A stretch of DNA of 6,644 bases from Nitrospinota bacterium (lineage in GTDB: Bacteria > Nitrospinota > Nitrospinia > UBA9942 > JAHJSF01): contig JAHJSF010000175.1 of the NCBI GenBank assembly GCA_018830405.1, forward strand, positions 1-6,644. Direction: 5' to 3'. The notes beneath the pieces were generated by a model. It saw only the letters and a list, made by a program, of their open reading frames with translations, was not told the origin of the DNA and ran no database searches. Each line of letters starts with the position of its first letter. The first letter of the stretch is position 1. Shown piece after piece: positions 594-3,505 of the stretch. The position numbers were made by a program, and so were the translations under genes.

Positions 594-893
594 ATGAACA
601 CGATCCTACGTACAGAAGATTTTGATACGTGGCTTAGAAAACTCAAAGATGCCAGAGGCAAGGCCCGCATAGTTGAGAGAATCCGTTCTGTCGAACGAGG
701 AAATTGGGGCGATTGTAATTCTATCGGACACGGCGTATCTGAGATACGTATTCACTTTGGCCCCGGCTACAGAGTCTATTTTAGCCGGATAGGAGATCTG
801 GTTTATCTGTTGCTTTGCGGGGGTGACAAGGGGAACCAAAAGCGTGACATTGCCAAGGCCCAAGAGATGGCAAAGCTGTTGAAGGAGAAATAA
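594..893 (+). CDS. RelE/ParE-superfamily toxin, HigB/phage Gp49-like (COG3657 type)
   Basis: This is a 99-residue toxin of a type II toxin-antitoxin module. Relatives are ribosome-dependent or related mRNA interferases that block translation when not bound by antitoxin. The group's hallmark C-terminal half is plain: G-V-S-E-I-R-I-H-F-G-P-G-Y-R-V-Y-F at about residues 48-64, then LLLCGGDKGNQKRDI at about 72-86. The N-terminus (EDFDTWLRKLKDARGKARI) matches the usual opening helix, and the length is typical of the family. The ATG has no convincing Shine-Dalgarno sequence. The stop codon lies three bases before the partner antitoxin, giving the reversed toxin-first order that is normal for HigBA and HI1419/HI1420 pairs. 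Nothing in the frame looks broken, so the toxin is probably intact. The exact cellular target cannot be read from the sequence. Confidence 0.9.
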   Translation: MNTILRTEDFDTWLRKLKDARGKARIVERIRSVERGNWGDCNSIGHGVSEIRIHFGPGYRVYFSRIGDLVYLLLCGGDKGNQKRDIAKAQEMAKLLKEK

Positions 894-896
894 ATT

Positions 897-1199
897 ATGA
901 AAACAGATAAAAAATTAAAGATTGCACCATTTGACGCCAGCGACTATCTGGATAGCGAAGAGGCGATTGCCGAATACCTCTCTGCCTCTCTGGAGAATCC
1001 TGACCCAGACGCATTTCTAATGGCCGTGCGCGATGTTGCCAAGGCCAGAGGTGTCTCCGCTGTCGCGTCCGCTTCAGGGCTCGGGCGGGAGAGTCTATAT
1101 AAGACTCTAAAACCGGGGGCACAACCACGTTTTGACACCGTTCGCCGTCTACTTCTTGCCTTGGGTGTGAAACTTGATGTCGTAACACCGCGCCCATAA
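897..1199 (+). CDS. Addiction-module antitoxin, HigA/COG3636-like helix-turn-helix protein
   Basis: This is a 100-residue antitoxin partnering the toxin just upstream. It should bind and neutralise that toxin and repress their shared promoter. The sequence follows the downstream-antidote family closely: an N-terminal F-D-A-S-D-Y-L-D-S-E-E-A-I-A-E-Y-L block (residues 13-29) and a region equivalent to ARARGMSQVA (KARGVSAVA, about 50-58). Then comes the helix-turn-helix with GLGRESLYKTL (62-72), followed by RFDTVRRLLLALGVKL (78-93). The ATG at 897 is supported by AAGGAG at 882-887, nine bases upstream and inside the toxin gene's end. Translation of the pair is therefore probably coupled, with the antitoxin better initiated than the toxin. 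The frame ends in TAA. A simple XRE regulator is the only alternative; the context makes the antitoxin role much more likely. Confidence 0.91.
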   Translation: MKTDKKLKIAPFDASDYLDSEEAIAEYLSASLENPDPDAFLMAVRDVAKARGVSAVASASGLGRESLYKTLKPGAQPRFDTVRRLLLALGVKLDVVTPRP

Positions 1200-1249
1200 T
1201 ACAAGATGTGGGTCAAAGGTCTCCATTCTTGACACAATCCTTATACCAC

Positions 1250-1278
1250 TTGGCAAGGCGTACGTAATGTGGTACATT
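1250..1278 (+). promoter_or_regulatory. Extended -10 promoter of the YefM-YoeB module
   Basis: TTGGCA (1250-1255, 5/6 to the -35 consensus) lies 17 bases from TACATT (1273-1278, 4/6). A TG dinucleotide at 1270-1271 makes an extended -10. Transcription would start near 1285, about 30 bases before the yefM ATG. Confidence 0.5.
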
Positions 1279-1279
1279 A
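1265..1279. promoter_or_regulatory. Palindromic operator candidate over the yefM -10 box
   Basis: TAATGT-GGT-ACATTA is a perfect 6-base inverted repeat that covers the -10 box. A second, overlapping repeat, ATTAT-CGAC-ATAAT, lies at 1276-1289. YefM-family antitoxins are known to repress their own operons through neighbouring palindromes at the promoter, so these are likely YefM or YefM-YoeB sites. Confidence 0.5.
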
Positions 1280-1316
1280 TCGACATAATATTATTTTAAT
1301 TCTTTGGAGAAAAATC

Positions 1317-1559
1317 ATGCCTATTTTGACCGCAACTGAAGCAAGGGCAAATCTTTATCGACTTATTGACGAGACCACCTCGTCTCATGAGCCTATTGTA
1401 ATAACAGGTAAGCGTGGTAAGGCTGTGCTTGTCTCAGAGGATGATTGGCGCTCTATTCAGGAAACCTTGCATCTATTGAATGTTCCCGGAATGCGGGAGT
1501 CGATTCGTGAGGGGCTGGAAACACCTATTGAGGAGTGTGAGGAGAAGGTTGAGTGGTAA
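1317..1559 (+). CDS. yefM: Antitoxin of the Phd/YefM family
   Basis: This 80-residue antitoxin should bind the YoeB-type toxin encoded next to it and repress the operon. The N-terminal DNA-binding fold is clear: MPILTATEARANLYRLIDE (residues 1-19), then the conserved strand P-I-V-I-T-G-K-R-G-K-A-V-L-V-S (26-40) and E-D-D-W-R-S-I-Q-E-T (41-50), the usual SEDDWxSIQETLxLL block. The acidic C-terminal part, about residues 55-80, would be the flexible toxin-wrapping region. I take the ATG at 1317 rather than a longer in-frame start at 1269. GGAGA at 1306-1310 is a well-placed ribosome binding site, the family begins at MP/MxI, and the longer version would run through the promoter and operator. The last seven bases overlap the toxin gene, as expected for coupled translation. 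Confidence 0.93.
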   Translation: MPILTATEARANLYRLIDETTSSHEPIVITGKRGKAVLVSEDDWRSIQETLHLLNVPGMRESIREGLETPIEECEEKVEW

Positions 1560-1807
1560 GTGGCTGGAAGATTCTTTTTACAAAACAGAGTCAGAAGGAT
1601 GCCAAGAAGTTGTCTTCTGCCGGTTTAAAACCAAAGGCCGAGCGATTGATAGGTGTTTTGCACAAAGACCCTTATCAGACACCCCCTCCTTTTGAAAAAC
1701 TTATAGGTGACCTATCAGGTGCTTATTCCCGCCGAATAAACATACAACACCGTTTGGTCTATCAGGTCTTAGATGATAAAAAGGTGGTCAAAGTTATTCG
1801 GATGTAG
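1553..1807 (+). CDS. yoeB: YoeB/Txe-family toxin, C-terminus lost to an in-frame TAG
   Basis: YoeB toxins are ribosome-associated mRNA interferases. The frame begins at a GTG that overlaps the yefM end by seven bases and reads W-K-I-L-F-T-K-Q-S-Q-K-D-A-K-K-L, the normal family opening. E48 and R67 (in S-R-R-I-N-I-Q-H-R-L-V-Y) correspond by my alignment to catalytic E46 and R65 of E. coli YoeB. The protein stops at V-I-R-M after 84 residues. Directly after the TAG the same frame continues T-H-Y-E and then a second TAG. Many relatives end in RMWTHYE, so the stop at 1805-1807 looks like a TGG tryptophan codon with one G-to-A change. The missing His-Tyr pair corresponds to E. coli H83-Y84, so the toxin is probably inactive or weak unless the stop is read through. 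It may still bind YefM. Confidence 0.88.
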   Translation: MVSGWKILFTKQSQKDAKKLSSAGLKPKAERLIGVLHKDPYQTPPPFEKLIGDLSGAYSRRINIQHRLVYQVLDDKKVVKVIRM

Positions 1808-3070: not shown

Positions 3071-3244
3071 TTGTCCTAAGCAACAAGAGGTGATAATTAG
3101 CTCTTGAAATATCAATTTTAAGAAATCTTTGCATAATAATCCTCCCCCCTCAAAGCAGGCAAACAACAGCTCTTTTCCCCAATTTTTCACCCACAAATCA
3201 ACCCTTTATTGACAAAGAAATCAGATAGATGTTAGTCTTGTAGC

Positions 3245-3269
3245 TCGGTTGTTACGATGTCACAACCGA
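3245..3269. repeat. Perfect 8-base inverted repeat, possible operator near a promoter
   Basis: TCGGTTGT (3245-3252) pairs with ACAACCGA (3262-3269) across nine bases. There is no T-run after it, so it is unlikely to be an intrinsic terminator. A weak promoter overlaps it: TTGTTA (3249-3254), 17 bases, then AATTAT (3272-3277). This could drive the structured element and the tRNA. Confidence 0.45.
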
Positions 3270-3304
3270 ATAATTATACGGGGTTGAATTCAAAATGATA
3301 ACAA

Positions 3305-3411
3305 GGCGGTGAGGAGGAAGCGACGCAAACATACTTTCCCGTATGTTGAGGAGCTGACGACGAAACCAACGCAGTTAGCGTTTGAAAGCGAGCCCGTATT
3401 GATAGTCTGCC
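3305..3411 (+). ncRNA. Two-module structured element in the tRNA-Leu leader, function unknown
   Basis: GAGGAG-N4-CGACG occurs twice, at 3311-3325 and 3348-3362. Each copy is followed by a perfect hairpin: AACATAC/GTATGTT (3328-3334 with 3341-3347, loop TTTCCC) and AACGC/GCGTT (3368-3372 with 3378-3382, loop AGTTA). GGCGG (3305-3309) could close the whole against CTGCC (3407-3411), the last three bases of which are the start of the tRNA. Purine-rich repeated flanks next to hairpins suggest an RNA fold or a dispersed structured repeat. I cannot assign it to a named family. The strand is inferred from the tRNA, and a DNA-level role remains possible. Confidence 0.4.
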
Positions 3412-3493
3412 GGGGTGGCGGAATAGGTAGACGCAAGGGACTTAAAATCCCTCGGGTTTTATATCCGTGCCGGTTCAATTCCGGCTCCCGGCA
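3409..3493 (+). tRNA. tRNA-Leu (anticodon TAA)
   Basis: The cloverleaf closes cleanly. The acceptor stem is GCCGGGG (3409-3415) with TCCCGGC (3486-3492), with one G-U pair at its base, and the discriminator A is at 3493. The D-arm TGGCGGAATAGGTAGACGC is typical of leucine tRNAs. The anticodon stem AGGGA/TCCCT frames the loop CTTAAAA with anticodon TAA, which reads TTA and TTG codons. A long class II variable arm (CGGG...CCGTG) precedes the T-arm GCCGG-TTCAATT-CCGGC. The 3' CCA is not encoded, since CTC follows, so it must be added after transcription. There is no sign of an integrated element at its 3' end. Confidence 0.96.
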
Positions 3494-3505
3494 CTCTTAT
3501 CTTGC

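Follow-up and report, generated by a model that had tools for sequence, protein, structure and literature searches.

The tRNA-Leu locus and the limits of the element

The window, that is, the whole stretch of 6,644 nucleotides analysed here, comes from a Nitrospinota bacterium (genome G000) and carries a tRNA-Leu (UAA) gene preceded by a 122-bp imperfect palindrome (Table 1). Only 10 bp separate the end of this element from the start of the tRNA, and the strand of the element that folds is also the sense strand of the tRNA. Elsewhere in the window (594-1807), two adjoining type II toxin-antitoxin-like pairs were recognised with Pfam.

Table 1. Features of the window, with positions, strand and the basis of each assignment (TSD, target-site duplication; TIR, terminal inverted repeat).
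Feature	Position	Strand	Basis
Gp49/HI1420-type pair	594-893, 897-1199		Pfam
YefM/YoeB-type pair	1317-1559, 1553-1807		Pfam
Left TSD, TTA	3274-3276		identical TNA on both sides in 13/29 separate family-A loci; here TTA/TTG, one mismatch
Whole element, MITE-like structured repeat, family A	3277-3398	+	R1 covariance-model match, 136 bits; fold z -4.93
5' TIR / outer stem, TACGGGGTTGAATTCAAA	3277-3294	+	inverted repeat; covaries among copies
G-GC-G / C-AA-C internal loop, 5' side	3305-3308	+	pairs with 3367-3370; near-invariant columns in alignment A1
Tandem-GA rod, 5' strand, with module copy 1, GAGGAGGAAGCGACG (3311-3325)	3308-3325	+	GA/AG in 80-100% of sequences at tandem positions; isolated pairs covary
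Apical hairpin AACATAC-TTTCCC-GTATGTT	3328-3347	+	7-bp perfect stem; stems vary yet stay paired across copies
Tandem-GA rod, 3' strand, with module copy 2, GAGGAGCTGACGACG (3348-3362)	3348-3367	+	as for 5' strand: tandem GA/AG, covariation
3' TIR / outer stem, TTTGAAAGCGAGCCCGTA	3381-3398	+	inverted repeat with 5' end
Right TSD, TTG	3399-3401		one mismatch against left TTA
tRNA-Leu (UAA), neighbour outside the element	3409-3494	+	ARAGORN and Rfam

The true unit is closed by the terminal inverted repeats (18-19 bp), in which the window copy has GGGG/CCC where most copies have GGAG/CTTC, the pairing being kept. The initial annotation had placed the borders at 3305-3411, a segment which folds no better than its shuffles (z -0.99), and had noted a purine-rich module in direct duplication. 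This duplication is real and far from chance, with copies at 3310-3331 and 3347-3368, 37 bases apart, and it appeared as a direct duplication because the module pairs with its own second copy. The pattern GAGGAGNNNNCGACGA has 18 exact matches in the genome, each inside a copy of one repeat; with at most one mismatch allowed there are 38, against nine for the reversed control. Each module had also been described as followed by a perfect hairpin; the first of these (AACATAC/GTATGTT) holds and covaries, whereas the second (AACGC-AGTTA-GCGTT) is disrupted in many copies (AACACAGTTAGCG, AACAAAGATAG) and lies outside the conserved fold.

Upstream of the element are TTGACA (3209-3214) and TGtTAGTCT (3230-3238), read by eye and not listed by the promoter scan, which could constitute the tRNA promoter. 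In that case the tRNA precursor would include the element, which RNase P would cut off. A scan for promoters and terminators found neither on the sense strand within the element. The left end together with the target duplication makes an outward promoter-like sequence, TTATCA-17-TATAAT, on the minus strand (3273-3301), and other copies with CGTATNA-type ends could form the same. A perfect 8-bp hairpin, TCGGTTGT/ACAACCGA (3245-3269), lies downstream of the possible tRNA promoter and ahead of the element. The stretch with the element is also bracketed by TGTTAGTCT (3230-3238) and TGATAGTCT (3400-3408), 170 bp apart, perhaps through an older duplication or by chance.

Fold and covariation

The sense strand of the element is predicted to fold at -42.1 kcal/mol, compared with -25.9 kcal/mol (z -0.81) for its complement. 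The resulting rod reads GGU-GA-G-GA-G-GA-AGC-GA-C-..-hairpin-..-GA-G-GA-GCU-GA-C-GA-C-GAA-ACC, in which GAGGAG of either arm opposes CGACGA of the other, giving tandem G-A pairs with single Watson-Crick pairs between them. By their sequence context these tandem mismatches would be of the sheared kind. GA/GA is the commonest two-by-two internal loop across copies (168/265) and GC/AA, found in families A, B and others, the second commonest (47/265); on the complementary strand such loops are much scarcer and show no pattern that matches. With RNA parameters, 144 of 145 sequences agree in which strand gives the better fold, a few sequences being common to more than one data set, and with DNA parameters the asymmetry is nearly as consistent.

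Covariation was examined in an alignment of 20 diverse copies (A1), the test taking in families A, C and D. Both sides change in 22 of the 38 pairs, and 90.6% of cells are paired, compared with about 30% once the partners are slid; none of 500 shuffles equalled the observed value on four of the five measures. The single pairs lying between two G-A tandems covary too (columns 38-93 and 41-90). Family B covaries by itself in 14 of 29 pairs, and in 27 of 28 loci the family-A model places it correctly, with weak scores for some of them. These tallies count sequences, not events. Homologues with compensating changes, which the initial annotation had proposed to look for, are present, and the compensating changes exceed the controls both in families A, C and D and in family B. 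Compensatory change among the aligned copies demonstrates that the predicted fold has been kept.

In spacers between co-directional genes the folded strand was the sense strand in 62 cases and the antisense strand in 30 (p 0.001), a modest bias resting on simple ORF calls, with all four data sets pointing the same way (34:16, 9:3, 7:3 and 12:8). In genome G001 a sense copy is situated between a promoter-like GTTTGATATACT and a DUF1015 gene, whereas in G003, G004 and G006 the DUF1015 gene is preceded by a comparable promoter-like sequence and by no element. The sense bias and this leader position point to the presence of the element in transcripts, and we infer that selection acts on the fold of a single strand, most likely as RNA.

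Copies, ends and occurrence among phyla

A BLAST search of 3285-3410 against its own genome (1.42 Mb in 185 contigs) gave 49 pieces at about 35 places. These represent family A, with about 35 copies, and are accompanied in the same genome by about 40 copies of a sister family B, in which the module order is reversed (CGACGA..GAGGAG), making some 75-80 copies together. Aligned family-A copies form one unit, TACGGAGTTGCATTCAAAATGATAACAAGGCGGCAAGGAGGAAGCGACGCAGGCATAC-loop-GTATGTTGAGGAGCTGACGACGAAGCCAACACAGTTAGCGTTTGAATGCGACTTCGTA, and in most of them the base preceding ATACGG equals that following CGTAT. TNA trinucleotides (N being any base; TTA, TAA, TCA, TGA) match on both flanks in 13 of 29 separate family-A loci, and represent a target-site duplication. 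Internal deletions between the repeated modules are common (e.g., L038, L041, L044), as is replacement of the apex, at several depths, by an unrelated CCCCC..GGGGG palindrome (L036, L048, L055). Three family-B elements of G000 each have nearby a G+C-rich sequence of 98 nt, alike at L081 1733-1830, L080 1231-1328 and L079 1302-1399, to which the model gives weak scores.

Relatives were sought by a pattern scan of GTDB genomes. Copies of 94-98% identity were found in Nitrospira bacterium HGW-Nitrospira-1 and the Nitrospirae MAG DP16D_bin.35, of 85-87% in the Nitrospirae MAG WY4.bin7 and a Deltaproteobacteria MAG, and of 77-83% in Syntrophus sp. SW.010. Many Syntrophus copies have quite different ends (TTCCAATTC..GAATTGGAA) on the same core, with exact TAA or TTA duplications, and one copy with ends of this type is also present in G000 (L142). 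In HGW-Nitrospira-1 a further copy (L089 1-150) is joined at AGTTAG to an apparent 3' half of a tRNA (GTTCGAATCCC..GACGCCA), where ARAGORN recognised no whole tRNA.

At an E-value of 1e-4 or better, R1 matched 9 of 77 genomes of the element's own phylum, 126 of 345 in the phylum of HGW-Nitrospira-1 and 94 of 345 in that of the Syntrophus MAG; at 1e-10 or better these fall to 3, 20 and 30, the E-values being rough. Since the large searches scored the best few candidates in each genome, the copies per genome are lower bounds. As negative controls, 68 genomes from the element's own phylum and loci of Y1 genes totalling 92 kb gave no R1 match. Misbinning could account for single near-identical copies in MAGs; it is not the whole explanation, because some carriers (e.g., G710 and G164) look like single-contig genomes.

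The terminal repeats vary among families (TACGGAGTT, TTCCAATTC, TACCAATTTG, TTCCACG, TAGATTTTC and others), while ACAAGGC opposite AACGCAGT, which forms the GC/AA loop, and GAGGA under the apical hairpin are common to them. The core and its loops are better conserved than the terminal repeats. The TNA duplication was observed in families A and C. Genome G012 contains about 160 copies in 1.4 Mb (from 324 end matches), with a median distance of 25 bp to the adjacent ORFs, and the 109 in the examined part are mostly 94-100% alike. Their flanks read N-TA before TAGATTTTC..GAAATCTA and TA-N after it, and because nothing matches past TA the duplication in G012 is TA, not TNA. As G012 duplicates TA and others TNA, the families may not share one mobiliser.

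Searches of plasmids, phages and IMG/VR yielded no match to the element. Against the 4227 families of Rfam 15, at the gathering score, the window returned the tRNA only, and copies of several families gave no match with relaxed thresholds, so that the Rfam search suggested at the outset likewise left the element unmatched. The motif sequences were absent from the literature searched, in which reviews and accounts of Geobacter genomes offered no more than general parallels, and no description of the element family was found in the main texts of the open papers covered. The superfamily is widespread, in at least three bacterial phyla, and apparently undescribed.

Nature of the element and competing explanations

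Copies of the element are dispersed through the genome, end in inverted repeats and are flanked by target duplications; they belong to a superfamily spanning phyla in which one strand folds into a long rod. The element is short and non-coding, as MITEs are, with many copies, terminal inverted repeats and a target-site duplication (TTA/TTG in the window copy). We regard it as likely that this is a non-autonomous MITE-like mobile element, inserted at a TNA site upstream of tRNA-Leu, which belongs to a cross-phylum superfamily with a conserved tandem-GA single-strand fold and probably acts as RNA. Its DNA would have been moved into the TNA site just upstream of tRNA-Leu by a putative trans-acting transposase. 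The two GAGGAG-N4-CGACGA modules, paired via tandem G-A mismatches, form the rod, with the variable apical hairpin on top. Lying inside transcripts (operon spacers, 5' leaders and here the presumed tRNA precursor), the insertion would be kept tolerable by this compact rod, which may be recognised by an RNA-binding or processing factor, and RNase P would remove the element along with the tRNA leader.

Searches for DDE_Tnp_1, for Y1_Tnp and, in part of G012, for a gene flanked by the element's ends found no transposase linked to it. DDE_Tnp_1 (PF01609) was absent from five carrier genomes (G000, G012, G710, G164 and G040) and present in 9 of 14 control genomes, and on its absence from the carriers an IS4/IS5-type mobiliser of this kind was rejected. 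Y1_Tnp did not turn up in G012 or G710, two genomes with many copies, and elsewhere was unlinked to the element. The 551 kb of G012 that were searched contained no transposase flanked by the terminal inverted repeats of the element. An apparent transposon in that genome, with two inverted terminal repeats 1.2 kb apart (L214 6970-8175), encloses an mnmA-like gene and is thus two partial copies, not an autonomous element.

One of three possibilities offered by the initial annotation was a structured leader or small RNA specific to tRNA-Leu, with a closing stem competing against the acceptor stem, and the element does lie on the strand of the tRNA and ends 10 bp ahead of it, which agrees with this. 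Such a leader is now extremely improbable, and is refuted as a general explanation, since other copies lie away from tRNA genes and the proposed closing stem (GGCGG/CTGCC, reaching into the tRNA) is unconserved; the real closure is the outer inverted repeat, 3276-3294 with 3381-3399. The element borders fall before the tRNA, leaving without support both the supposed competition with the acceptor stem and an effect on tRNA processing through overlap with it. The position beside the tRNA is incidental, and a copy of a dispersed structured repeat, another of the three, proved to be the right one. That repeat could in principle be an ordinary MITE or palindromic intergenic repeat, its copies young and its arms matched by quasi-palindrome correction (template switching), with no selected fold. 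The target duplications and terminal inverted repeats, the close likeness of copies within a genome, as in G012, and the nested palindromes swapped at the apex all accord with such a repeat. We nevertheless consider it unlikely: template switching would erase the G-A mismatches, which persist across phyla with a fixed 5'-GA/GA-5' polarity and with a partial indication that their positions are kept above the neutral rate, and neither the strand asymmetry with its sense bias nor a core and loops that outlast the terminal repeats would be expected. MITEs are usually thought to retain just the ends read by the transposase while the interior drifts. Here the reverse holds: from one family to another the terminal repeats are entirely different and the core is retained.

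That one strand alone folds, with DNA parameters included, could also be expected if a structure-specific nuclease or transposase read the fold as single-stranded DNA, as happens in the IS200/IS605, REP/RAYT and attC systems. Tandem sheared GA is stable in DNA, and the terminal repeats vary freely, as though shape and not sequence were read. However, Y1 enzymes are not known to make 3-bp or 2-bp target duplications such as are present here, Y1_Tnp was not found in G012 with its roughly 160 copies or in G710, none of 30 Y1 loci has an element beside it, and a sense-strand bias would not be anticipated, so that a role as single-stranded DNA appears improbable. A RAYT/REP identity was rejected on the same Y1 loci, the same two genomes and the target duplications.

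Bacterial MITEs such as Chunjie of Geobacter uraniireducens, QMITE2 of Coxiella, Correia/NEMIS and ERIC resemble the element in being small, non-coding and intergenic, with dozens of copies, terminal inverted repeats and short target duplications, and their transcripts are predicted to fold (PMC10969869). The element differs from them in its interior fold, which is maintained from phylum to phylum with compensatory changes and the same set of G-A mismatches, and in terminal repeats, and even a target duplication, that differ between families. Chunjie, compared by description and not by sequence, measures 178-235 bp against 122 bp. REP/REPIN sequences, moved by RAYT (Y1), are likewise extragenic imperfect palindromes in many copies with a strand-specific fold; they are shorter (20-40 bp), and the element has target duplications and no Y1 gene flanked by copies. 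Multicopy palindromic nucleotide sequences of Geobacter genomes (PMC2700814, PMC2996986) are similar by description, being palindromic multicopy intergenic families of Deltaproteobacteria. A conserved fold with covariation is shared with the structured RNA classes of Rfam 15, none of which it matches.

It is possible, and proposed here tentatively, that the tandem-GA rod is itself the true unit of selection, a functional RNA (or single-stranded DNA) module carried among mobile shells with different terminal repeats and target duplications in at least three phyla. This would define a class of mobile structured nucleic acid with a conserved fold rather than conserved transposon ends. The interior fold, with its fixed tandem G-A pattern and two conserved internal loops, appears to outlive the ends; should this hold, the cell would contain something that reads it, and the element would be mobile DNA and functional RNA or single-stranded DNA at once. 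The covariance model could annotate the element in about one in three to four sampled genomes of two large phyla, and with it one could test cleanly whether insertions in operons and tRNA leaders are made tolerable by the fold.

The apex also receives other sequences. In G000 a second palindrome, CAACCCCCTTATTCCCCCTTAACAAAGGGGGATAGGGGGTTG, takes over the element apex at several depths (L036, L048, L055, L013, L050 and others), in the manner of hairpins nesting in hairpin tips. In G012 an unassembled multicopy insertion, whose ends resemble GGCACTGCGCAGAAATA, interrupts at least seven copies of the element (L217, L247, L275, L276, L223, L248 and L254), each in the same region of the apex; it may be an IS with the hairpin as its target.
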